Shown: one piece after another, positions 4,115 to 25,121 of the stretch
Layout: the number at the start of each line of letters is the position of its first letter
Numbering within the stretch: the first letter of the stretch is position 1
Notes under the pieces: model-generated
The model's input: only the letters and a program-made list of their open reading frames with translations
What the model was told of the DNA's origin: nothing
The model's database searches: none
Origin: Phycisphaerales bacterium
GTDB lineage: Bacteria > Planctomycetota > Phycisphaerae > Phycisphaerales > SM1A02
Length of the DNA: 45,697 bases
Assembly (NCBI GenBank): GCA_022446905.1
Contig: JAKVBT010000009.1
Location: 30,633 to 76,329 of the forward strand
Direction: 5' to 3'
Program-made: the position numbers and the translations under genes

Positions 4115-4951
4115 ATGAATCCCGAAACTGAAGGAAGTGCTGAAATGGATTCCACGACACAGGAAGTGACGCCCGAGTCGTGCGCTGCTGGCGAGGCCGA
4201 TGAGCAGCCAGTGTCCGAGGCACCACCATTGACGCAGGCAAGTCCTGCTCAGGAAGAGGCAGTGCCAGTTGTCGAGACGGCCACGCCAGCAAAGTCGACG
4301 ACGATCGAGGGAGCTGGATTTGCAGTGTCTGCGCCACTGGATGATTCACAGGCCAGCGAAGAACAGTTCGATCCTGCCGTGGATATGCCTATGTATCGCA
4401 AGGGCATGGACTGGTTTGTGCTGCGCGTGGCTTCCAATAAGGAAAACTCGGTTCGCGATACGCTGCAACGCAAGGTTGAGATCGAAGAGCTGACTCATCG
4501 CATTGGTCGAATCATGGTGCCCACCGAGAAAACCCGAACACTCAAGGGTGGCAAGCAGAAGATCACTGAGATCAAGCTGTATCCCGGCTACATCTTTGTG
4601 GAGATGAAGCTTGAAGACGGCCGTATTCCGCAGGATGTTTTCTTCCTGATTAAAGAGACGACTGGTGTTGGTGACTTTGTGGGCACGGCCGGCCGGCCAA
4701 CGCCGATGTCACCAGGTGAAGTTGAGAAAATGCTCTTTGATTCGCGGATGCCTGAAGAAGAGCCTGAAATTAAACTCGAGTTCAGCCCGGGCGATGGTGT
4801 CACCATCAAGGAAGGCCCGTTCGAGAATTACGAAGGCACGATCGACGAGGTCATGCCTGACAAGGGCATGGTTCGCGTGCTGGTCACCATCTTTGGTCGC
4901 CAGGCTCCAATCGAACTGGAGTACTGGCAGGTCGAGAAGGCTGAGCAGTAG
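4115..4951 (+). CDS. nusG: Transcription termination/antitermination protein NusG with N-terminal extension
   Basis: A 278-residue NusG that binds RNA polymerase and couples it to Rho or the ribosome. The NGN domain starts at about residue 98 (MDWFVLRVASNKE) and includes RIMVPTEK and LYPGYIFVEM; the KOW domain, from about residue 225, has FSPGDGVTIKEGPF and ends with IFGRQAPIELEYWQVEKA. The first 95 or so residues are an acidic, Pro/Ala/Thr/Glu-rich stretch of low complexity with no counterpart in the roughly 180-residue E. coli protein. GGGGAG at 4102-4106 supports ATG 4115. The usual rplK is not found downstream. Confidence 0.95.
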   Translation: MNPETEGSAEMDSTTQEVTPESCAAGEADEQPVSEAPPLTQASPAQEEAVPVVETATPAKSTTIEGAGFAVSAPLDDSQASEEQFDPAVDMPMYRKGMDWFVLRVASNKENSVRDTLQRKVEIEELTHRIGRIMVPTEKTRTLKGGKQKITEIKLYPGYIFVEMKLEDGRIPQDVFFLIKETTGVGDFVGTAGRPTPMSPGEVEKMLFDSRMPEEEPEIKLEFSPGDGVTIKEGPFENYEGTIDEVMPDKGMVRVLVTIFGRQAPIELEYWQVEKAEQ

Positions 4952-5078
4952 TTCTATTGGCATTGTGGTGCTCACTGCCTGACCCTGTTCTTATCGAGCA
5001 CGGCTGCGGGGTCTGTACGCATGTGGCTGCCCCTTGGTGTCTGGCGGGTTGATCCAAACGCGCTTTCTAGCGGCTTGC

Positions 5079-5084
5079 TATGCT
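5079..5084 (+). promoter_or_regulatory. -10 element TATGCT for a leaderless start
   Basis: TGCTATGCT is an extended -10 form (TGN before the hexamer). The hexamer ends 7 nt before ATG 5092, placing the predicted transcript start at or next to the start codon. I see no Shine-Dalgarno, so this favours ATG 5092 over ATG 5080. Confidence 0.45.
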
Positions 5085-5091
5085 CGCGCCA

Positions 5092-6054
5092 ATGAGCATC
5101 TTGAGCACCATCATCGTCGGGGCGCTAGCAACCCCTGCCAACTTTTTAGCCGCGCCGCTATCTCTTGGGCAGGCCCAAGCATCAGGGGTAGCGCCAGTTG
5201 ATCAAGCTGTGGCCCCGATGGGGCAGTCGCAGGGCATGGCGTCTTCCGCATCAGTGCAGGCTGGATGGGTTTGGCAACTGAAGACCAGTCTCACAGACGG
5301 TGCTGGCGGGCGGTTCTCGATGAATCGGGGCCATGTCAATGCCAGTGCTCAACTGGCCTTGGCTTCGGATCTCGATCTATTGATTGGCGGTCGGTATCAG
5401 CGGGATAACTACAGTTGGGAAGACATCGCATCGCCCTGGACCTCCACCAATACAACACGATTCGAAGCCTCATTGAAGTGGAAGGCCAGTAGGCAACTTC
5501 AAGTCTTTGGAGGTGGCATGGCACGCTGGGCTGCTGAATCTGGGGCATCACTCAGTGATGGTTTTTCAGGTGGCGGTGCTATTGGAGCTGCGTGGGCGTT
5601 CAGCAAGGAACTTGTGCTTGGTGGCGGTGTCGGCATTCGATCGCGAATTCTCGATGATCCACTGTGGTTTCCGATCGTTGTCGTTGAGTGGCAGATCACT
5701 GAACGCTTGCGTCTTTCATCCCGGCTGACCAGTGGCTGGGCCAATCGCAGTGGTGCTGAGCTGATTTATGAACTCAGCGACAATCTGGATGTCGGCGTTG
5801 CGGCGGTCTATGACTATCAGCGGTTTCGTTTGTCGGATGATGCGCCGATTTCAGGGGGGGCGGGCACATCCGAAACGTTACCTGTTGCCGCCTTCATCTC
5901 GTACAACGTCAGCGAGCGATTCAGTTTGACTGCGTTTGCTGGCGCCACGGTGTACGGCCGGTTGACGGGGACGACCCAAGCTCGGAATGAGACATTCGCA
6001 TCAGACTTCGATCCTGCTCCAGTACTGGGTATTCAAGGGACGATTCGATTCTGA
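5092..6054 (+). CDS. Outer-membrane beta-barrel protein with signal peptide
   Basis: A 320-residue exported protein. The N-terminus (MSILSTIIVGALATPANFLAAP) is a signal peptide. The rest is a chain of alternating hydrophobic/polar strands rich in Gly, Ser, Tyr and Trp, such as DLDLLIGGRYQRDNYSW and LSSRLTSGWANRSGAEL, and it ends in GIQGTIRF with a terminal Phe, the usual end of outer-membrane barrels. It resembles the DUF6268-like barrel proteins of planctomycetes; the family assignment is from memory. Substrate or role is unknown. The start is set by the -10 element 7 nt upstream; ATG 5080 is an alternative that adds four residues. Confidence 0.7.
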   Translation: MSILSTIIVGALATPANFLAAPLSLGQAQASGVAPVDQAVAPMGQSQGMASSASVQAGWVWQLKTSLTDGAGGRFSMNRGHVNASAQLALASDLDLLIGGRYQRDNYSWEDIASPWTSTNTTRFEASLKWKASRQLQVFGGGMARWAAESGASLSDGFSGGGAIGAAWAFSKELVLGGGVGIRSRILDDPLWFPIVVVEWQITERLRLSSRLTSGWANRSGAELIYELSDNLDVGVAAVYDYQRFRLSDDAPISGGAGTSETLPVAAFISYNVSERFSLTAFAGATVYGRLTGTTQARNETFASDFDPAPVLGIQGTIRF

Positions 6055-14467: not shown

Positions 14468-16048
14468 GTGTCGCGATCAACATCCACTCCAACACACCAC
14501 ACGGCTGGCATCATCGATACGTTGCAGTCAGTGATTGTCGCGTTCACCTTGGCGATGATTTTCCGCGGCTTTGTCATCGAAGGCTTTGTGATTCCCACGG
14601 GGTCGATGGCACCAACGCTCATGGGTCAGCACCTCAAGATCACCAGTGGCCAGACGGGGTCGACTGTTCCTGTGGGTCTCGACAGCGGCGGGCGCATCGT
14701 TCCAGCGATGCTTCGCGACCATTTGTTGGGGCAGTCACAGCAGTTGACAGCAGCGACACCATCTTCACTGATTCCACGCGGCGGTGATCGCATCTTGGTT
14801 GCCAAACTGATGTATCCCTTTGTCGAGCCAGACCGGTGGGATGTTGTGGTCTTCAAGAATCCTGCGAACCCTGAAGGGGAGAGCGGAACCTATATCAAGC
14901 GGCTTGCAGCGCTTCCTGGCGAAACCCCATGGATTGTCGATGGCGATGTTTTCATCAAATCTCCAGCGGCAGATCGGTTCCAGATTGCGCGCAAGCCTGA
15001 CCATGTTCAGGAGGCGGTGTGGCAATTGGTCCACGACTCCAATGTCACCGCTGCGCGGCCTGCCAAACTTCCGCGACGGGCGATGGATGGGCCATGGGTC
15101 GCCACGCCGCCAGCAGATTGGACTGTGCAAGATGGCGTGTATGACAAGAGCAGCGATGGGATCGCACACTTGGAGTGGAATGACCGTCGATATCCATTGA
15201 ATGACTGGTCGGCTTACAACATGCTGATGACGGTTCCGGATTTAAATCCAGTCAGTGATCTCCGCATTGCTGCCACCATTACACCGGAAGCAGATGATGT
15301 GCAGACCACATTTGCACTGACGGCTCGGTCGCATGTCTATGAAGTGAGTGTGGCTGATGGGCGTGGGACGCTCTCGATGCGCCCTGAGCAAAAAACGGAT
15401 GCCGTGAGTAGCGTCAGTTTCGATGCTCCAGCCACCGCAAGTGGATTGCCTTGGCGCATGGTGTTCGAACATGTGGATCAGCGTTTGCGAGTCTGGATCG
15501 AAGATGAACTGGTGGCAGATCTTGCGTATGACTGGTCTCCACAGCAGCGATTGGCCAATTCAACTGGCCAGACTGAAAACGCGGAGTCTGCGCAACAAAT
15601 GCTACGACGTCGTGTGCTTAGGCCGATGTTGACGTGGACGCTCGCGGGCGGTTCGGCAGCGCTGTCCAATATGACGGTCGAACGCGACTTGTTCTATCGG
15701 GGTGGAATGCTCGGCCCGCAGTCCATGGCGAGTCAGCCGTCAGAAGAATGGGCAGATCTGGTTTCGTTGCATGCGCCAGGTGCGGCGACGCATCCTGATG
15801 CGTTGGTGACTCTTGGTCCTGATCACTTCTTTGTGTTGGGTGATAACAGTGGCCGCAGTCTCGACAGTCGGCTGTGGGGTGCGCCAGCGCCAATTGCCGC
15901 AGCACAAGTCGACGATACTCCCTTTGTCGTGCCACGGGAGCTCTTGATTGGCAAGGCCTTCAGTGTGTACCTGCCATCTATGCTCCCGGCATGGGAAGGC
16001 GGCCCGACCATCATTCCTGATTTTGGTCGATGGCGGTTCATTCACTAA
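14468..16048 (+). CDS. lepB: Signal peptidase I with a large beta-rich insert
   Basis: A 526-residue type I signal peptidase (family S26) that removes signal peptides at the outer face of the inner membrane. One N-terminal membrane helix (about residues 18-35) is followed by the Ser box IPTGSMAPTL with nucleophile Ser46. The general base is Lys113 in RGGDRILVAKL, after a spacer longer than usual. The next family segments are DVVVFKNP, YIKRLAALPGE and, near residue 458, FFVLGDNSGRSLDSR. Between these, at about residues 210-425, is an insert of some 200 residues predicted as a jelly-roll-like sheet domain (WTVQDGVYDK, AATITPEADD, LRVWIEDELVADL). E. coli LepB has about 324 residues. The protease core looks active; the insert's role is unknown. 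Confidence 0.88.
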   Translation: MSRSTSTPTHHTAGIIDTLQSVIVAFTLAMIFRGFVIEGFVIPTGSMAPTLMGQHLKITSGQTGSTVPVGLDSGGRIVPAMLRDHLLGQSQQLTAATPSSLIPRGGDRILVAKLMYPFVEPDRWDVVVFKNPANPEGESGTYIKRLAALPGETPWIVDGDVFIKSPAADRFQIARKPDHVQEAVWQLVHDSNVTAARPAKLPRRAMDGPWVATPPADWTVQDGVYDKSSDGIAHLEWNDRRYPLNDWSAYNMLMTVPDLNPVSDLRIAATITPEADDVQTTFALTARSHVYEVSVADGRGTLSMRPEQKTDAVSSVSFDAPATASGLPWRMVFEHVDQRLRVWIEDELVADLAYDWSPQQRLANSTGQTENAESAQQMLRRRVLRPMLTWTLAGGSAALSNMTVERDLFYRGGMLGPQSMASQPSEEWADLVSLHAPGAATHPDALVTLGPDHFFVLGDNSGRSLDSRLWGAPAPIAAAQVDDTPFVVPRELLIGKAFSVYLPSMLPAWEGGPTIIPDFGRWRFIH

Positions 16049-16116
16049 GCAAGGCGTGAATGGTGGATGGGGTATCGTGTAAAAGTGTGCTGTTTCAGAA
16101 CCGACGGAGGCACGAT

Positions 16117-16893
16117 ATGACTTGCAAACTTCTACTTGCTTTGGCAATGAGTGCAGTTTCGCTGGTTGGTTGTGAGGACCGTTCGGGCGATTTGCTACAA
16201 GGCTGCCTCGATAATTCAAACAACCTCACAGTTGCTGAAGTTCAAGAGCTTGTAGATCGCGGTGCAGATGTGAATGCTCGGGGGGAGTATGACTTGACTC
16301 CTTTGATGCACGTGGCGGGCGTCAACCCCAATCCTGAAGTGACCTCTGCGCTTCTGAAGGCAGGCGCAGAGATCAATGCGAAAGACTGGGTTGGCTGGAC
16401 CCCACTGTTCTACGCAGCGATGACCAACACAAATCCCATGGTGCTATCAGTCCTGCTTGGGGCAGGTGCTGAGGTGAATGCAAAGGCAAAGAGTGGTTTT
16501 ACTCCCCTGATAGCAGCAGCAGGACGTTCCAGTCCTGAAGCGATTGCAGTTTTGCTAGACGCAGGTGCTGAGTTGAATCCAAAGGGAGATTCTGTGTTTA
16601 CTCCTTTGATGCAAGCGGCATCCTTTAACAGTCCAGAAGTGATCTCGTTGCTGCTGAATGCAGGTGCTGATGTCAATGCGAGGTGTAAAACTCCGTACGG
16701 CGGCATGACTCCGCTTATGTGTGCAGCGAGATTTAGCGGTAATCCTGAGGTGTTTACAGTGCTTCTTCAGGCGGGTGCTGATGCGAAAGTAAAGAGCACA
16801 TTTGGGGAGACTGCTCTTGACTTGGCGAAGGCAAACGAAAAACTCCAAGGCACACAGGTAGTAAAAGAACTACAAGAAGCAACCAACCCGTGA
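16117..16893 (+). CDS. Ankyrin-repeat lipoprotein
   Basis: A 258-residue protein with a lipoprotein signal: MTCKLLLALAMSAVSLVGC, lipobox L-V-G-C with Cys19. After processing it would be anchored in a membrane facing the periplasm or the outside. About six ankyrin repeats follow, with the repeated pattern T-P-L-x-x-A-A...L-L-x-A-G-A-x-x-N-A-K. GGAGG at 16106-16110 lies 6 nt before ATG 16117, so the longer open frame from 16060 is not used. Ankyrin repeats bind other proteins; the partner is unknown. A terminator follows. Confidence 0.88.
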   Translation: MTCKLLLALAMSAVSLVGCEDRSGDLLQGCLDNSNNLTVAEVQELVDRGADVNARGEYDLTPLMHVAGVNPNPEVTSALLKAGAEINAKDWVGWTPLFYAAMTNTNPMVLSVLLGAGAEVNAKAKSGFTPLIAAAGRSSPEAIAVLLDAGAELNPKGDSVFTPLMQAASFNSPEVISLLLNAGADVNARCKTPYGGMTPLMCAARFSGNPEVFTVLLQAGADAKVKSTFGETALDLAKANEKLQGTQVVKELQEATNP

Positions 16894-17023: not shown

Positions 17024-18913
17024 TCAGCGAAGGATTGACCGCATCTCTTGAATTGACTTGGCGGTCCGGTCTCCGAACTCTTGGAGTGGAATACTGCCAA
17101 GTTCATCAAACGCAATCGAGGTGTCTTCGTCGCTTCCGAGTTCAGTCCAACTATTCAGCATGGCCCCATCGATCGGTGTGAAACGAAGCAACTCTGGGTC
17201 TCCCTGAGGAACGAGGAATTGTCGTGGTGACTGGCGCTGCAATGATCGGCCACGTCGCCAGGCCGCGAGGTTCAGCAGCGCTCCATCAGAGAGGTCGGCG
17301 ACAACTACATCGTCAGACTCGGTCCACCCGGTTCCTGTGTAGGAAAGGTGTTCGCGAGTCCATGCAGTGGCGCGTTGGAGTCCAGCGGGATCTCTCAATG
17401 GCAGTTGTCGGAGCAGTCGGTCAAAGTCGCTGCGTGCCCCTGGGTCTGTCAGATGGTGCTTGGCATAGGCTTGAACTGGAGCTACCAGACGCATGGTGAT
17501 GCTCGCAGACAGAAGCGAAGAGGCAATATTGGGGTGATCTGCCAGGGCTGCAGCAATTCGAATCAACTGCTGAAGTGTGCGATCAGTTGTGGCGGCATCA
17601 CCTGCCTCAGTTGACCGGTCAAGCATGACAAAGAGGCCATCCAGTAAAGCCTCTTGCCCAGGAAGCCACCATGGGACGATGGCCATCAGATACTCATTGA
17701 GGGGTTCGGGATAGGACGCGGTCTGCATGGCGCCGGCTTGGGCAAGTAACTCCTGAATCTCTGTAGTTGCTGATTCATCATCAACCCAGGGGCCGCTGGC
17801 CTGCATCGCCAATTGGCCTGCTTCAATCCACTTCCAAGCGGCGTTGCCCGTGCCACGAGATGACATGATGGAGGTCAGGCGAATCTGACAGTCTCGAATG
17901 TCTTCGACGCGTTCATTACGCTTCTTGATCACGTGTGATATTGCAGGCAGCAAGAGCGTTGCGAAAAACCCATGTGAACCTTCGCTTGCAGCTTGCTCCA
18001 AAGCCTTGATCGCTGTAATAGACGCAGCTTGATTCGGTGATTGAGCTAAGGTTGCAAGTTGACCGTATGCAACTTGCAATTTCTGGAGATCCTTTCGAAT
18101 GCTTCCGATTGTGAGCTCGGGTGGAGGTTTGGCATCTAAGCCGAGGCCGTCTACTCCGAAGAATTGCTCCATAAGATCTTGAGGCGGGGCGTCGTCCGCA
18201 GGCAGGGCATCAAGTTGTAGATGTTTGGTGATGCTCCATGTGGCAATTTCTGCTTCAAATCTCATGGATGCGGCAACATTGAAGGGATCTTGAGTCAGGT
18301 AGCGCTCTAGTGACTGATGGAGCGTCTGCCTTTGCGCTTCAGTAAGTGTGCTGCAGTCGAGAAGATGATGAATCGATTGGACGACATGTCCGGCTACGCT
18401 TTGGGCCACCACGGCATTGATGATGAGCTTGTCAGTAGCGATATGCTCGCCGATGCGGGATGCCGCCTTGATGTGCTCAATCGCGGGCTCGATTGCTCCT
18501 TGAGAAGCCTCCCAGCGTGCAGCGGCCAGCAATAGCTTTGATCCCCGCATCATGGGGCTCAGTTCTGGAACGAGTTCTTGAAACCCATTCTCTTTGAAGT
18601 CGTGCTCAAAGTCTGGCGAATCACCCGCGGAAGCGCTTCGGGCCAGATCAATCGGTTGTTTCGTGTGTGCACGCCAACGTGCTTCCATTTCAGGTGTTGC
18701 CGGAATGCCAGCATCAAGACATGTAGTGAGCCATGTGAGCTCTTCGTGCTGATCCGAGGGCATTTCTTCTTGCCACGAAATCAATTCACGGTACAAATCT
18801 GCAGAGTTGGGGCTCAGCATCGTCACGCACAGTGAGATTGAAGCCATCATCAGCATTGAGGGTCTCCACGCAGCCCGCCATTGACTCTCGAAAGGGTATC
18901 GTGCTGGGATCAC
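17024..18913 (-). CDS. Exported protein of unknown function, helical
   Basis: I do not recognise this 629-residue protein. The N-terminus has basic and aromatic residues (RYPFESQWRAAWRPS) followed by a hydrophobic stretch MLMMASISLCVTML, consistent with a signal peptide or anchor. The rest is mainly helical, rich in Ala, Leu, Gln and Glu, with repeat-like segments of TPR character (for example LLLAAARWEASQGAIEPAIEHIKAASRIGEH). The start taken is GTG 18913; ATG 18856 is an alternative but would lack the positive charges of a signal peptide. The GTG lies 5 nt from the divergent deiodinase-like gene, so the two promoters must lie inside each other's coding sequence. Confidence 0.6.
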   Translation of the reverse strand: MIPARYPFESQWRAAWRPSMLMMASISLCVTMLSPNSADLYRELISWQEEMPSDQHEELTWLTTCLDAGIPATPEMEARWRAHTKQPIDLARSASAGDSPDFEHDFKENGFQELVPELSPMMRGSKLLLAAARWEASQGAIEPAIEHIKAASRIGEHIATDKLIINAVVAQSVAGHVVQSIHHLLDCSTLTEAQRQTLHQSLERYLTQDPFNVAASMRFEAEIATWSITKHLQLDALPADDAPPQDLMEQFFGVDGLGLDAKPPPELTIGSIRKDLQKLQVAYGQLATLAQSPNQAASITAIKALEQAASEGSHGFFATLLLPAISHVIKKRNERVEDIRDCQIRLTSIMSSRGTGNAAWKWIEAGQLAMQASGPWVDDESATTEIQELLAQAGAMQTASYPEPLNEYLMAIVPWWLPGQEALLDGLFVMLDRSTEAGDAATTDRTLQQLIRIAAALADHPNIASSLLSASITMRLVAPVQAYAKHHLTDPGARSDFDRLLRQLPLRDPAGLQRATAWTREHLSYTGTGWTESDDVVVADLSDGALLNLAAWRRGRSLQRQSPRQFLVPQGDPELLRFTPIDGAMLNSWTELGSDEDTSIAFDELGSIPLQEFGDRTAKSIQEMRSILR

Positions 18914-18918
18914 ACGTT

Positions 18919-19605
18919 ATGGCAGCGGCACCCCAATTCATCCCATATGACCACTGGAAGCCAGATGAGCCGCCTTTGAACGCGGCGCAGCGGTTTCAGC
19001 AGTGTGTATCGAAACGACGTACGGTCAGGCATTTTTCCAATCGACCAGTGCCGAAGGAGTTGATTGAATCAATCATTGCTGCCGCGGGCAGTGCTCCGAG
19101 CGGCGCCAATAAACAGCCATGGCGATTTGTAGCGATTGATGATCCGGAAGTGAAACGTGAGATTCGAGATGGGGCTGAGGCAGAAGAGCAACTGTTCTAC
19201 GACCAAAGGGCCCCAGAACGCTGGCTTGGCGATCTCCATCAACTTGGTACCGATGCGCACAAGCCACATCTTGAGGATGCTCCGTGGTTGATTGCAGTCT
19301 TCAAACTGATGCAGGACGAGTACGACAATAATTTGTCCGGGGGGGTTTACTACGTCAATGAATCTGTTGGAATCGCCTGTGGTTTGTTACTTGCAGCAGC
19401 GCAACACGCAGGACTTGCGACCTTGACTCATACCCCGAGTCCGATGCAGTTTCTCTGTCAGATTCTTCAGCGACCAGCGTATGAGCGGCCTTTCTTGTTG
19501 ATTCCAGTAGGTTGGCCAGCGGATGATTGCATGGTTCCTGATATCACTCGCAAGCCACTCGATGAGATTATGGCGCACAACCGCTCAGGCGGGTCGTCTA
19601 CATGA
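18919..19605 (+). CDS. Iodotyrosine deiodinase-like nitroreductase-fold flavoprotein
   Basis: A 228-residue FMN flavoprotein of the nitroreductase fold, closest to iodotyrosine deiodinase (IYD). IYD reductively removes halogen from mono- and di-iodotyrosine. Matches to the human protein include KRRTVRHFS (FMN phosphate), APSGANKQPWRFV, VYYVNESVGIACGLLLAA, THTPSP and KPLDEIM at the end. The three residues that hold the tyrosine zwitterion in IYD (human Glu157, Tyr161, Lys182) align with Glu90, Tyr94 and Lys115 at the same spacing. The start ATG 18919 avoids overlap with the divergent gene; the frame is open from 18832. A TATCGT at 18897-18902 may be the -10. The stop overlaps the next gene by ATGA. 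Natural substrate unknown; a halotyrosine or related halophenol is likely. Confidence 0.85.
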   Translation: MAAAPQFIPYDHWKPDEPPLNAAQRFQQCVSKRRTVRHFSNRPVPKELIESIIAAAGSAPSGANKQPWRFVAIDDPEVKREIRDGAEAEEQLFYDQRAPERWLGDLHQLGTDAHKPHLEDAPWLIAVFKLMQDEYDNNLSGGVYYVNESVGIACGLLLAAAQHAGLATLTHTPSPMQFLCQILQRPAYERPFLLIPVGWPADDCMVPDITRKPLDEIMAHNRSGGSST

Positions 19606-20147
19606 TGTGGCTGCATTGGGTACTGACAGGCCTGTTTGCCTTGCTCGGCATGGGTTGTCTGCTGCTGGTGATTATGCAGTTGCCCGGTGTGTGGATTTTG
19701 CTTGTGCTTGGCTTGGCTGTGCAGTTGATCGATGTCACATGGATTCATGGCGACGACGCGACTGCGGGTTGGTGGGCTCTTGGCTTAGCGGCCATTCTGG
19801 CAGTCATCGGTGAAGTGCTCGAGAATCTCGCTGGCGCCGCAGGGGCCCGTGCTGGCGGCGGATCTCGCCGCTCGATGTGGGGCGGCTTGATTGGAGGGAT
19901 CCTTGGGGCGATCTTTGGTACACCAATCATTCCAATTCCCATACTTGGAACCTTTATCGGTGCGGTCATCGGCGCATTTGCCGGAGCCTTTCTTGGCGAA
20001 GTCACCGGACCGAATCCAATGCGAACAACCGAAGCGATGAAACCTGCAGCGGGGGCAGCGACTGGGCGTGCAGCGGGCACATTGATCAAGGCAGGCATTG
20101 CTGTGGCGATCTGGCTGATCGTGCTTGCGGGCCTATTGATTCGCTAA
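19602..20147 (+). CDS. DUF456 family membrane protein
   Basis: A 181-residue integral membrane protein of the DUF456 type. Hydrophobic helices at about residues 5-45 and 60-75 are followed by the Gly-rich glycine-zipper-like core (GGLIGGILGAIFGTPIIPI, then FIGAVIGAFAGAFLGE) and a last helix at about 160-180. No enzymatic motif is visible and the function of the family is unknown. Its start overlaps the stop of the deiodinase-like gene by four bases (ATGA), so the two are translationally coupled. The gene ends 7 nt from the convergent gspE stop. Confidence 0.85.
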   Translation: MMWLHWVLTGLFALLGMGCLLLVIMQLPGVWILLVLGLAVQLIDVTWIHGDDATAGWWALGLAAILAVIGEVLENLAGAAGARAGGGSRRSMWGGLIGGILGAIFGTPIIPIPILGTFIGAVIGAFAGAFLGEVTGPNPMRTTEAMKPAAGAATGRAAGTLIKAGIAVAIWLIVLAGLLIR

Positions 20148-20154
20148 TCGATTG

Positions 20155-21924
20155 CTACGTGTCACCAGTGACGCGAAGAACTTCCGAAAGTGTTGTCTGG
20201 CCTACGGCCATTTTGTGCAAAGCATCCTCACGAAGCGTCATCATGCCTGCATTGACACAGTGTTGGCGAAGTTCATTCACGCTTGGATTCCGTGCAATGT
20301 GATCTCGCATGTCGTCATCAACTTTGAGTATCTCATGGACGCCGAGTCTTCCGGAAAGTCCAGTTTCTCGGCACGCATCACATCCACCACCCTCTACCAA
20401 ATGCTTTGCATCTACATTGATACGAGCCAGATATTCAGCGGCGGTGTCTGATACAGGGACCTTCTGCGAACATTGAGTGCAGACACGACGCATAAGACGC
20501 TGTGCTAGAACCGCATTCACTGCACCAGAAACGAGGAAGGGTTCGATGCCGATGTTGATCAGTCGCGTAATAGATGACGGGGCATCATTGGTGTGCAAGG
20601 TAGAAAGCACAAGGTGTCCGGTCAGAGCGGCCTGGATGGCAATGGTGGCTGTTTCTTGATCACGAATCTCGCCAACCATGATGACATCTGGATCCTGTCG
20701 CAATAGCGTTCGCAACGCTGCCCCGAAAGTCATGCCAATGCGATCATGAGTCTGAATTTGGGTGATGCCCTGAACTTGATACTCCACTGGATCCTCGACT
20801 GTCGAAACATTGAGGCGCTGAAGATCAAGTTCCTGAAGAGATGCGTAGAGGGTTGTGGTCTTACCTGATCCAGTAGGTCCGGTCACCAGCAGAATGCCGT
20901 GTGGCTTGGCAATCTGCGCTTGCCAATCAGTGAGCAGATCATCGCGGAATCCAAGTTTTTCAACGGGCACCTGCACACTTCGATTATCGAGCAGTCTCAT
21001 TACGGTCTTTTCGCCGTGTGGGGTGCGAGCGGTAGACACTCGCAGATCTAGCGGTCTGCCAAACACCTGAACACGGATGCGGCCGTCTTGCGGAAGTCGT
21101 CGTTCGGCAATATCCAGCGAAGCCATAATCTTGATGCGGCTTGTAATCGAAGCGAGCATCTTTCGTGGCGGGTTCATGGTTTCATAGAGCACCCCATCAA
21201 TGCGCAGGCGAACACGGACTGCGGACTCAGAGGGCTCAATATGTATGTCGGATGCGCCTTCGCGTACGGCTGTTTGGATGATGTGATTCACATAGCGAAC
21301 GACTGGCGAGCTGCTCCCATCGTCGCACTCTTCTTCAGCGGCGGCCTCGACTACAGAGACGTCATCTTCAGCAGCATCAGCAAGAAGCTCCTCAACATCG
21401 AGATCTTCTTCCGTTTCGCTCTTTAATGTGTTGAGCAGTGCGGTGATGGTGCTTGGCCCACAAAGCACCTGCGTGAGGCGTTGGCCTCCAAGCATCGCTC
21501 GCACCTCATCTAGCGTCGCAAGGTCATCAGTGCTCGACATTGCCAGTCGAACTCGGTCCTGATCATCTGCGAGTGGGAGAATGCCGGAAGATTCACAGTA
21601 CTCAATGCCAAGTGTGTTCAGTGCCTTTTCGTGGATGTCATCCTTGTTTGGCATGACATAGTCAACACCAACATGTTCGGCAACCACTTGTAGCAGACTG
21701 TGTTCATCTGCGCCCATATTGAGCAGAACCTGCGCAATAGAGCTTCCTGGTGTCTGTTTCAGTACGCGGCGTGCGGTGTCAACCTGGGCGCGGTCAATCA
21801 CGCCACGCTCAATAAGCGTGTCTCCGAGGTCGCAAAAGTTAGGTGCAGACTGCGCATCAGGCAGCCAAAGATCGTGCAAAGTGGAGTCAGTAGATTTGGA
21901 TTGCTTGGTCATCAGTGTGCTCAA
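20155..21924 (-). CDS. gspE: GspE/PilB-type secretion or pilus assembly ATPase
   Basis: A 589-residue hexameric ATPase that drives pilin or pseudopilin assembly. An N-terminal MshEN-like domain (LGDTLIERGVIDRAQ...) precedes the catalytic part: SDIHIEPSE, Walker A GPTGSGKTTTLYA, the Asp box, Walker B-like IMVGEIRDQETA and the His box. Two Cys pairs (CTQC and CDAC) form the zinc site typical of GspE and PilB. The start is TTG 21924 because it overlaps the pilP-like stop as TTGA, as at the pilM/pilN junction; ATG 21912 is an alternative. Last gene of a five-gene operon. Type IV pilus and type II secretion ATPases cannot be told apart from sequence alone. Confidence 0.9.
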   Translation of the reverse strand: MSTLMTKQSKSTDSTLHDLWLPDAQSAPNFCDLGDTLIERGVIDRAQVDTARRVLKQTPGSSIAQVLLNMGADEHSLLQVVAEHVGVDYVMPNKDDIHEKALNTLGIEYCESSGILPLADDQDRVRLAMSSTDDLATLDEVRAMLGGQRLTQVLCGPSTITALLNTLKSETEEDLDVEELLADAAEDDVSVVEAAAEEECDDGSSSPVVRYVNHIIQTAVREGASDIHIEPSESAVRVRLRIDGVLYETMNPPRKMLASITSRIKIMASLDIAERRLPQDGRIRVQVFGRPLDLRVSTARTPHGEKTVMRLLDNRSVQVPVEKLGFRDDLLTDWQAQIAKPHGILLVTGPTGSGKTTTLYASLQELDLQRLNVSTVEDPVEYQVQGITQIQTHDRIGMTFGAALRTLLRQDPDVIMVGEIRDQETATIAIQAALTGHLVLSTLHTNDAPSSITRLINIGIEPFLVSGAVNAVLAQRLMRRVCTQCSQKVPVSDTAAEYLARINVDAKHLVEGGGCDACRETGLSGRLGVHEILKVDDDMRDHIARNPSVNELRQHCVNAGMMTLREDALHKMAVGQTTLSEVLRVTGDT

Positions 21925-22568
21925 GGTTTGGGCAAAATCGCCTCATGCGTCACTTCCATAGAGGGGTCGGCGAGTTGAACGTGGATGCCGCTGGAGTTGA
22001 CTGCCATGAGCGTCAGGTTGACATTGTCAGGTAGCTCAACGGCCTCGTTGAGGCGAACGGTATGACCATCAATGATGGCCATCGTTGTTCGACCGCGGAG
22101 CACCATGGAGACATGCATCTCACTGACCAACGATTGCAGTTCCTCTTCGCGGACAAGCTGCCTTGATGGCCCGCGATGTCCTGAGGTTTCGGCGACTACT
22201 GCCTGCAATGTGCCAGGAAGAATAAATGGATTCATATGCACAGCACGAACCGCATGTCTAGCACGAGATTGGTCGCTGTGGGATAGCGTGGCAATGGCAT
22301 TGGATGCAGTGTCACTGTTTGAATGGGAATCACTTGGCAGTAAGTATGATTCAATGGTGCGCTGAGCCTCTATCTGAGCAGTGGCAGTGGCTGGTCCGCC
22401 CACAAAAAAACGCATGCCGACAATGATCACGGCACCGCCACCGATCACCAACGACATGACGGTGATGCGCCGTTTCCGTTCACGTGAGAACGGAGATTCA
22501 GCTATTGGCTCAAAAGTCTGTTCTGTTTCGATGTCACTGCCAGTGACTTCAACATCAGACCAAGTCAT
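21921..22568 (-). CDS. PilP/GspC-like inner-membrane protein
   Basis: A 215-residue bitopic protein: a cytoplasmic N-terminus of about 35 residues, one membrane helix (about 36-57, VMSLVIGGGAVIIVGMRFF) and a periplasmic part. The C-terminal 75 or so residues (MVLRGRTTMAIIDGHTVRLNEAVELPD...) look like the small beta domain of PilP and GspC that contacts the secretin. Identification rests on that domain plus its place after PilM-, PilN- and PilO-like genes. Starts and stops overlap neighbours by ATGA and TTGA. Confidence 0.65.
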   Translation of the reverse strand: MTWSDVEVTGSDIETEQTFEPIAESPFSRERKRRITVMSLVIGGGAVIIVGMRFFVGGPATATAQIEAQRTIESYLLPSDSHSNSDTASNAIATLSHSDQSRARHAVRAVHMNPFILPGTLQAVVAETSGHRGPSRQLVREEELQSLVSEMHVSMVLRGRTTMAIIDGHTVRLNEAVELPDNVNLTLMAVNSSGIHVQLADPSMEVTHEAILPKP

Positions 22569-23158
22569 GGTCGGTCTCCTGCCTCAGCCAACGTAGGAAC
22601 GCTGTCCGAGAAGTACACACTCAGCACAAATTGAGCCGCAATTGAGCCCGGGGGAAGTTCGTTGCCGGGGCCACGCAATTGCATGCCGGATTCTTGAATG
22701 GACATCTCTGCGATGCGGGTGATTCGTGGAAGTCCCTCGAGATCAATGAGAAACCGGTAGAAGCCTTCAAACGGCCCACTCATTGAGACTTCTAATGGAA
22801 GTTCCATATACAGACCAGAAGGTACGGCTGGCTTTGTCTTAAATGAGCGCACAGTCAGTCCGTTGCGTTCGGCAATCTGCCAGGTTTGTTCGAGTACAAC
22901 TTCTACATCTCGTCGTGGAGGCAGTTTGGCTTCAATCTGCGTTACCAAATTTTCAGCGGTTGCTAATGCATCCTCAAGATCTGGAATGCGACGAGTTAGA
23001 AGTGCCACTTTCTCCAGTTCTGTATTGCGCGAGTCAATTTCCTGGATAGCTCGGTCAATTTCCTGCTGTTGAGGCTGGAAAACAAGCACCCAAGAGAGCA
23101 CTGGTATGCAGACCAAAGTAAAGACAAAGCCTGTTTGGCGGAGGGTTTTGTTTGTCAT
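22565..23158 (-). CDS. pilO: PilO-like pilus/secretion assembly protein
   Basis: A 197-residue protein with a short cytosolic start, one membrane helix (about residues 10-27), a coiled coil (EIDRAIQEIDSRNTELEKVALLTRRIPDLEDAL in part) and a periplasmic ferredoxin-like domain containing EVSMSGPFEGFYRFLIDLEGL, the typical PilO/GspM-type segment. It forms part of the inner-membrane alignment complex with PilN and PilP. ATGA overlaps on both sides. Confidence 0.78.
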   Translation of the reverse strand: MTNKTLRQTGFVFTLVCIPVLSWVLVFQPQQQEIDRAIQEIDSRNTELEKVALLTRRIPDLEDALATAENLVTQIEAKLPPRRDVEVVLEQTWQIAERNGLTVRSFKTKPAVPSGLYMELPLEVSMSGPFEGFYRFLIDLEGLPRITRIAEMSIQESGMQLRGPGNELPPGSIAAQFVLSVYFSDSVPTLAEAGDRP

Positions 23159-23862
23159 TGGCCTGCCTCCAGAGCGCTGGCATCACTGAGGTGCATACTC
23201 CTGATGTCAGCGTTCGGTCCAATCGTCGCGCGAATACTGAACTGACGAACTGGAACGTCATTGAGTTCAACTTCTTCAGAGAAGATGAGTGTTACGGTCT
23301 CGAGTAGTGGATGGTCATTGAGTGATGCAAGGAAGGCAGACACATGAACATCGGTAGGAGCAAAACCAAGCAGGCTTATGGCGGTATTCCAACGTGGCGG
23401 TTCAATTGGGGCGGTGCCTGATTCGGTAGCGGTTTGAACTCGGCTTGGCTGATTTGCAGGCCTCGCACCATCTGTCTCAGTGGGCTCAATGATTGTTGTG
23501 GTCAGTTCGAACTCCATCAAGCCAAGGCCTTCTGGCATGCGATTGATGAACTCAGCGAGAAGGACTGAGCGTGGGAGTCGGTCTACTAGGCCAGCAGCCA
23601 GCATGGCCCGTTTCTGTACTACATCCATCTGGTGTTCGAGTTCATCGAGCGTTTGAACCTGCGCTGCTGCGTGCATGTAGCGCTGTGAGACTTCGTTCCG
23701 AATATTTCGGATCTCTGTCCATGATGTGCGTTGGAGCAGAAATCCAACAGCGAGACCGGCGACAACGATGATGAATAAGGCCGTTGCTGCCAAATGCATC
23801 CGTCGATCCTGGCGGTGCTCGATGTATTCGCGAGGGAGAAAGTCGTCTGTCGTGTGGCTCAA
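23155..23862 (-). CDS. pilN: PilN-like pilus/secretion assembly protein
   Basis: A 235-residue bitopic protein. It opens with SHTTDDFLPREYIEHRQDRR, the PilN-type cytosolic peptide that binds PilM, then has one membrane helix (about residues 23-42), a coiled-coil stretch and a periplasmic domain. The open frame extends to 23913, but the start is taken as TTG 23862 because it overlaps the pilM stop as TTGA and has GGGAG 9 nt upstream. The long Thr/Pro-rich stretch at about 140-165 is a probable linker. Confidence 0.75.
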   Translation of the reverse strand: MSHTTDDFLPREYIEHRQDRRMHLAATALFIIVVAGLAVGFLLQRTSWTEIRNIRNEVSQRYMHAAAQVQTLDELEHQMDVVQKRAMLAAGLVDRLPRSVLLAEFINRMPEGLGLMEFELTTTIIEPTETDGARPANQPSRVQTATESGTAPIEPPRWNTAISLLGFAPTDVHVSAFLASLNDHPLLETVTLIFSEEVELNDVPVRQFSIRATIGPNADIRSMHLSDASALEAGQ

Positions 23863-24968
23863 GTTCGATTGCTCCCATCGGTCGTGCCTGCCAAGCCAGC
23901 AGCAATAGCCCACTGTGGGCGAATGTGCTGATGCCAGTTGTCAATGGGAACGTTGGTTTGCTCAGTATTCCACTGGCCGAGAGGGTCTCCTACGACTGCT
24001 GGAACACCAAGCGAACGTGCCAATTGCCTGCATGGCGATTGTTCTGTAGCAGCCGTTCCTGTGAACACCACGCGACCAACTTCGATGTTGTCAAAGAGGC
24101 TGCGATGGTGTCGAAGGCATAGCTGAAGTTCTTCCACAATCTCTGCGGTGTTCTTATTGCCCGCGGCACCATCACCTACTGGCAGACTCGCCATGCTGTC
24201 TGGCATAGCGCCTTGTCGACGATTGAGTGTTGCGAGGAATTGTTGTTCACTCGGACTTTCTGCTGCGGCGACAGGTACTGACTGTTCGATCCGTCTCGGG
24301 GCAGCATGGATCGCGTTGGTGCACACACTGGTATCAAAACGGCGAGCAAGCACCATTTGCCGTCCATGACCGATCGCAGCGGTTGTTCCATGCTGATCTA
24401 GATCAACATAAAGCGTTGCGCTATCAGTATCACGTTCACGTCGATTCAAGTGAGCAAATGCACGCACCATCATGCTTGCAGGTGAGTACACAGCGGCAAC
24501 CTCAAACTTGAGATCGTGGAGCATTTCGACATAGCGCAGTACGGAAGCGCGAGACATGGCGAGCAGGAGCACATCACGACCAGAGCGCATGGTGCGGCCA
24601 TTGACTGGCAGATCAATTGTGCGCAGGGTGAGATCTTCAGCAAGGTCTGGAAACCGCGACTGTGCGATGAGTTGTGGGTCCTCATCAGCTTCAATGCGGG
24701 CATAGGCCATTGAGACCATCGCTGCTGGAAGTGCCACGGCAAGCCTTCGCCCACGCCACGGGCCATCGTCAGAGATGGTTTTGAGGGCATGTGATGCGAC
24801 TTCTAGGTGGCTGCTGAGGTCAAATGGTGCCGCGTTGGGCAGTGGTGTTTCGGTAGCGGTCGCAACCGAGGTGAGGTCCTCTGAGTCCAATTGAACCAAT
24901 CTGATGGCATCGACTCCGAGATCCGCAGCAATCGGAGGCGGTCCGGACCGCTTCCAGGGCAAAGGCAT
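23859..24968 (-). CDS. pilM: PilM-like actin-fold assembly protein
   Basis: A 369-residue actin-like ATPase fold protein. The phosphate-1 motif is IAADLGVDAIRLVQL, the second is LYVDLDQHGTTAAIG, and VVFTGTAA near residue 310 corresponds to the adenosine motif. PilM binds the PilN tail at the cytoplasmic face. GGAGG (minus strand, 24977-24981) lies 8 nt before ATG 24968; in-frame starts further upstream (24983 to 25025) lack such a site. It is the first gene of the pilM-N-O-P-gspE operon. Confidence 0.82.
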   Translation of the reverse strand: MPLPWKRSGPPPIAADLGVDAIRLVQLDSEDLTSVATATETPLPNAAPFDLSSHLEVASHALKTISDDGPWRGRRLAVALPAAMVSMAYARIEADEDPQLIAQSRFPDLAEDLTLRTIDLPVNGRTMRSGRDVLLLAMSRASVLRYVEMLHDLKFEVAAVYSPASMMVRAFAHLNRRERDTDSATLYVDLDQHGTTAAIGHGRQMVLARRFDTSVCTNAIHAAPRRIEQSVPVAAAESPSEQQFLATLNRRQGAMPDSMASLPVGDGAAGNKNTAEIVEELQLCLRHHRSLFDNIEVGRVVFTGTAATEQSPCRQLARSLGVPAVVGDPLGQWNTEQTNVPIDNWHQHIRPQWAIAAGLAGTTDGSNRT

Positions 24969-24990
24969 GCGCAAGTCCTCCATTGAGAGA

Positions 24991-25006
24991 TGACCCTCAA
25001 GGGTCA
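24991..25006. promoter_or_regulatory. Inverted repeat upstream of the pil operon
   Basis: TGACCC at 24991-24996 and GGGTCA at 25001-25006 form a 6-bp inverted repeat around TCAA, just upstream of the pilM Shine-Dalgarno. It could be a small operator or an mRNA hairpin; there is no further support. Confidence 0.25.
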
Positions 25007-25121
25007 TGAGGTCTCGTCGGCACAATGCATGGCAGACTGAATCTCGCTCAGAGTGCTGGGCCGACCCTTGCAGATGGCCGTTGGTCTGTACCGGTTGTGT
25101 CGGATTGCAATGTTGGGGTGG

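Follow-up and report, generated by a model that had tools for sequence, protein, structure and literature searches.

The frame at positions 18919-19605 of the window, which is the whole stretch of 45,697 nucleotides of Phycisphaerales DNA analysed here, raises the question of whether a planctomycete encodes an iodotyrosine deiodinase (IYD) that acts on halotyrosines, and whether the membrane protein gene that overlaps it is a working partner. The frame, which has an ATG start and a TGA stop, with an in-frame GTG upstream at 18832, very probably encodes a bacterial IYD, a counterpart of the thyroid enzyme that removes iodine from iodotyrosine. The features of the enzyme itself are the following.

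18919..19605, + strand: IYD homologue of 228 aa with a nitroreductase fold, with the triad Glu90, Tyr94 and Lys115, and Thr172 corresponding to human Thr239.
19186..19200, + strand: codons Glu90 to Tyr94, placed by position arithmetic, within modelled helix 76-96.
19261..19263, + strand: codon of Lys115, placed by position arithmetic, just ahead of modelled helix 117-120 according to the alignment and the model.

The 228-aa protein matches PF00881 with 95.1 bits in the Pfam search, which indicates membership of the fold only. Its six top phmmer matches among PDB sequences are all iodotyrosine deiodinases: 5ko7 from Haliscomenobacter hydrossis (E 3.8e-70), which was deposited with the molecule name "Nitroreductase" and with a title naming the H. 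hydrossis IYD, human 4ttb (4.2e-54), mouse 3gb5 (1.6e-53), 5yak, 3tnz, and 6pz0 (4.5e-23), which is the weakest. The first non-IYD match, 4dn2 (1.2e-17), lies about 52 orders of magnitude behind the best IYD and about 5 behind 6pz0, and the same six IYDs rank first when the PDB sequences are searched with a profile of 22 planctomycete homologues. Identity is 53.2% to 5ko7 (115 of 216 aligned columns) and 45.1% to human IYD (96 of 213), while the human and H. hydrossis enzymes are 45.5% identical to each other. The homology to IYD, which the earlier note had claimed over the whole length, is thus confirmed over nearly that length by the ranking and identity of these matches. The BluB equivalog model TIGR02476 gives the protein 56.5 bits, below its cut-off of 150. 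The only other PF00881 match of the genome at a threshold of E 0.001 aligns with IYD just over residues 32-81, with 11.5 bits, and the triad region is outside that alignment.

Glu90, Tyr94 and Lys115 stand opposite human Glu157, Tyr161 and Lys182 in the alignment, with no gap in between, so the spacing is the one that had been proposed from the sequence; Glu, Tyr and Lys at this spacing form the substrate triad of IYDs. The complete triad is found in 185 of 186 planctomycete loci, of which about 15 rows are repeats, and in the sole exception, L137, the triad Tyr is replaced by Phe. Eighty of these loci, the retained part of 283 confirmed ones, come from six peptide patterns, and 106 come from whole-protein searches at E <= 1e-30, a choice that favours close relatives (46 returned by the search and 60 hand-picked from the remaining matches). 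Because one of the peptide patterns spans residues 89-96, the 106 whole-protein loci weigh more. The two collections overlap, with 173 different sequences in 188 tree rows. Thr172, which is equivalent to human Thr239 and presumably lies near the flavin, is kept in all loci that cover its position (79/79 and 106/106). At Ala113 the human and H. hydrossis enzymes both have a tryptophan (Trp180 in human IYD); this position is Trp in 14 of the 186 loci and mostly Glu, Ala, Pro, Asp or Ser in the others, and therefore the lid is not identical. In the alignment, Asn64, Lys65, Arg69 and His171 also differ from human IYD.

An AlphaFold2 monomer model, which was built from a 22-sequence alignment and has pLDDT 87.4 and pTM 0.85, puts Glu90 and Tyr94 on its helix 76-96 and Lys115 before its short helix 117-120. 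The best structural matches of the model in VIA-align are halotyrosine-bound IYDs: 3tnz (Z 25.1, rmsd 1.9, 219 aligned), 3gfd (25.0), 5yak (24.9), 4ttc (24.9), 3gh8 (24.6) and 5ko8 (Z 24.3, rmsd 2.3, 217 aligned). The ligand-free IYDs 5ko7, 4ttb, 3gb5 and 3to0 have Z 20.6 to 22.2, a difference to be read with the 185 to 202 ordered residues of ligand-free chains against 218 to 222 of bound ones, which alone lowers Z. The 2-iodophenol complex 5krd (21.8) and the L-tyrosine complex 6pz0 (21.2) are within this ligand-free range, and the first non-IYD structure has Z 17.3. Foldseek likewise has 5ko8 as top match (E 1.2e-23). The overlay on IYD structures that had been suggested as a check hence agrees at the level of the fold, and the agreement is confined to that level.

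The protein could alternatively be an ordinary nitroreductase or flavin reductase whose triad likeness is incidental, since it belongs to PF00881, a family with many activities. Such an enzyme is very hard to reconcile with an IYD match over nearly the whole length that leaves other nitroreductases far behind, with a triad kept in all but one of the loci and with IYD structures at the top of the structural ranking, and it is the least probable of the readings considered. BluB and other PF00881 nitroreductases share the fold and the N-terminal part with this protein, and differ from it by the low BluB score and by structural Z values of 17.3 or less.

Among known systems, the H. hydrossis IYD (5ko7, 5ko8, 5krd) has, like the protein described here, the same triad at the same spacing in 228 aa, and both have Lys65, His171, Met176 and Phe178. 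They differ at human position 180, where H. hydrossis has Trp and this protein Ala113, and at positions 64 and 69, which are His and Thr in H. hydrossis and Asn and Arg here. Human and mouse IYDs (4ttb/4ttc and 3gb5/3gfd) have the triad, the threonine at Thr172/Thr239 and the overall fold in common with this protein, and carry Thr where it has His171 and Lys65. Animal IYD has an N-terminal membrane anchor, which is absent from this 228-aa frame. 6pz0, which is presumably from Thermotoga and was deposited as an IYD of 192 aa with L-tyrosine bound, shares the nitroreductase fold, but is 32% identical over 184 aligned residues, with a match that begins at residue 24 here. Novelty is limited because crystal structures of bacterial IYD exist (5ko7, 5ko8, 5krd), some of them ligand-bound.

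IYD is a homodimer, and this protein would be expected to form one as well. In the review PMC5499721, the lid of IYD is described as helical and as closing around both iodotyrosine and FMN; the phenolic end of the substrate is contacted by the 2'-hydroxyl of FMN, and two mechanisms with reduced FMN are proposed. By homology, the same lid and FMN mechanism is expected here. A lid above the flavin would carry Glu90, Tyr94 and Lys115, which would grip free halotyrosine by its amino-acid part, and reduced FMN would strip iodide from the ring, and probably bromide and chloride too, to give tyrosine. Dehalogenation of halotyrosine is thus the likely activity, and there is good reason, from alignment and model, to regard the protein as a genuine bacterial IYD, predicted to be an FMN enzyme that converts free halotyrosine to tyrosine. 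From the earlier reading as a halotyrosine dehalogenase, the core is retained, with the complete triad, its conservation and a model that matches halotyrosine-bound IYDs, while its novelty and its DUF456 partner are not.

The triad might instead grip another phenolic or aromatic amino acid, so that the natural substrate is a different one and halotyrosine turnover a side activity. The replacement of human Trp180 and the differences at residues 64, 65, 69 and 171, which are alignment positions only, would fit such an enzyme; so would a genome in which the halogenase family PF04820 has no match at E 0.001, and flanks in whose larger clusters no halogen-related family was recognised by eye among the recurring neighbours. 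However, Lys65 and His171 are found in the H. hydrossis IYD too, an enzyme crystallised with iodotyrosine (5ko8), and PF04820 is one halogenase family searched in an incomplete assembly, while the substrate could come from outside the cell. A different natural substrate is accordingly a minority prospect, though a more serious one than an ordinary nitroreductase, and halotyrosine is taken as the more probable substrate in what follows.

The earlier note also coupled the gene to a DUF456 membrane protein through an ATGA overlap and considered this pairing unexplored. The neighbouring features are the following.

17024..18913, - strand: divergent frame of 629 aa with no Pfam match at E 0.001, left side of a syntenic block.
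19602..20147, + strand: DUF456 membrane protein (PF04306), a syntenic neighbour with ATGA overlap with the IYD gene.
20155..21924, - strand: GspE/PilB-type secretion ATPase (T2SSE), identified by Pfam and locus comparison, right side of the block.

The overlap is real (19602-19605), and the downstream frame matches PF04306 with 81 bits against a gathering cut-off of 29.4. A mere 5 bases separate the GTG of the 629-aa frame, at 18913, from the start codon ATG of IYD, and the true start of that frame therefore probably lies further inside; relatives of this frame are found by phmmer in 34 of 187 loci, and the window copy has a hydrophobic N-terminal stretch. Conservation of the neighbour, which had been proposed as a check, is low: DUF456 is directly downstream of IYD (same strand, frame start between -150 and +300) in just 20 of the 179 loci that have at least 900 bp downstream, and it is present anywhere in the fetched DNA in 24 of 186. 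Twenty-one of these 24 loci share one order, which is the divergent 629-aa gene, IYD, DUF456 and convergent GspE; the exceptions are L016 and L020, which have DUF456 and GspE about 4 kb away, and L042, which has no 629-aa match.

A two-gene functional unit of IYD and DUF456 would account for the ATGA overlap at this locus and for the 20 directly downstream cases. It could also draw on the FastTree phylogeny, in which no fewer than 7 changes of the block label are required over the whole tree, so that the pair occurs in more than one clade as resolved; this tree is poorly resolved, with 61 of 170 inner branches open. No single clade is claimed for the block because of these changes. Against such a unit, the flanking of the pair by the 629-aa gene and GspE in 21 of 24 loci is what inherited synteny predicts, and the window IYD falls among 16 rows grouped with support 99, of which 15 have the block. 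DUF456 is widespread in the order (84 of 101 genomes), and the 38 genomes of the order that have both genes hold them adjacent in 3 cases (the window's own genome, G137 and G297); another adjacent pair is found in G672 (L190), which lies outside the class IYD survey. Of the 9 sampled members of the family that lack IYD, 8 retain DUF456.

When 30 DUF456 loci are compared with flanks of up to 1.5 kb, GspE is present in the flanks of 15 and IYD in those of 4, the window included. In L194, L202 and L204 the 629-aa gene adjoins DUF456 and IYD is absent from the flank, and L194, which comes from a genome without IYD in the class search (G252), has the 629-aa gene, DUF456 and GspE with IYD missing. 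Since the block exists without IYD, IYD looks like an optional element of it. DUF456 thus looks like an inherited syntenic neighbour of IYD and not a working partner, and a two-gene unit is highly improbable. DUF456 is not wholly unexplored either, as YqgC of Bacillus subtilis, a DUF456 protein, was studied alongside SodA in manganese homeostasis, where, according to PMC10888875, the double deletion was manganese-sensitive and the yqgC deletion alone was not.

Clustering of 802 flanking frames of at least 90 aa, up to three on each side of 187 loci, gives lineage blocks: the 629-aa gene, GspE and its cluster, DUF456, a signal peptidase and small sets. No recurring catabolic or transport neighbour of IYD was seen among the larger clusters, as judged by eye. 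The region 20155-25025 (- strand) of the window contains the GspE-type ATPase and, after it, further frames on that strand that reappear as a group in related loci; these may form a cluster for type II secretion or a pilus. A 526-aa frame at 14468-16048 (+ strand) matches Peptidase_S26 in three separate stretches, which suggests a large insert within a signal peptidase, and 16060-16893 (+ strand) encodes an ankyrin-repeat protein that has no relative in the fetched loci by phmmer.

The assembly to which the window belongs, 2.58 Mb in size and 96% complete, has a single copy of IYD. At E <= 1e-30 the gene is present in 90 of the 298 genomes sampled from the class and in 121 of the 392 sampled from the phylum. 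It is a single-copy gene throughout the survey except in G422, where two partial pieces lie on two contigs. The 80 retained pattern-found loci are mostly titled Phycisphaerales, Phycisphaerae or Planctomycetota. IYD is therefore a fairly common, optional planctomycete gene, found in about 30% of sampled genomes. At locus L032 the IYD frame is in two adjacent pieces (4944-5345 and 5349-5645), either a broken gene or a sequence error. A marine-type origin, which had been suggested for the host bacterium, is plausible from the names of near relatives (Arabian9, ALOHA). A search of the literature for IYD or iodotyrosine in planctomycetes returned nothing; subscription papers are mostly outside its coverage, so reports in print may exist.

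The window's own genome has an HPPD above the model cut-off and, about 2 kb from it, an hmgA-like match that is far below its cut-off (58.7 bits against 510.75); with these, freed tyrosine could be used. Across the class (n=298), 83 of the 90 genomes with IYD have HPPD, against 21 of the 208 without IYD, and among the 184 genomes with a heme-copper oxidase match the counts are 83 of 89 and 21 of 95. The control, tryptophan 2,3-dioxygenase, is found in 76 of 90 IYD-positive and 13 of 208 IYD-negative genomes, in counts taken at E <= 1e-20 (89 genomes), of which only 12 exceed the model's own cut-off. By family, the IYD-HPPD signal is largely one of lineage: in family f4 a single genome of 11 has all three genes, in f3 (n=4) two have IYD and none HPPD, and in f10 (n=24) three have IYD, two HPPD and one both. 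Beyond the class, HPPD was matched in 14 genomes, in one of them just below the cut-off, and 4 of these have IYD. This compares with 103 IYD-positive genomes listed outside the class in the phylum survey, in which handles run from G298 to G648; the HPPD search covered a smaller draw of 294 genomes. The co-occurrence was consequently rejected as specific evidence for a tie of IYD to tyrosine degradation, as the tryptophan control is nearly as strong and the link was not seen outside the class. Two genomes of a single genus have a tryptophan 2,3-dioxygenase family match on the strand of IYD and close to it, at a distance of about 1.4 kb in G002:C1 and about 1.5 kb in G038:C1.

Because HPPD co-occurrence barely exceeds the control, tyrosine salvage is named as the most likely role on biochemical and not genomic grounds; the optional single-copy gene would serve to recover tyrosine from environmental halotyrosines. 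For this locus the annotation can be upgraded from "nitroreductase family" to IYD, although the importance of a single locus is modest. Bacterial IYD is already known, and its spread in planctomycetes is the addition made here and the part worth passing on. Planctomycetes, in which about 30% of sampled genomes carry the gene and non-carriers occur in the same families, offer natural pairs for testing the purpose of the enzyme where there is no thyroid. Tentatively, and with the odds somewhat against it, planctomycetes may be a large, little-noticed reservoir of IYD, with triad-complete enzymes in about 30% of sampled genomes and a lid variant of their own, that would dehalogenate free iodo-, bromo- and chlorotyrosine. 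If true, this reservoir would tie the breakdown of proteins to the cycling of iodine and bromine.
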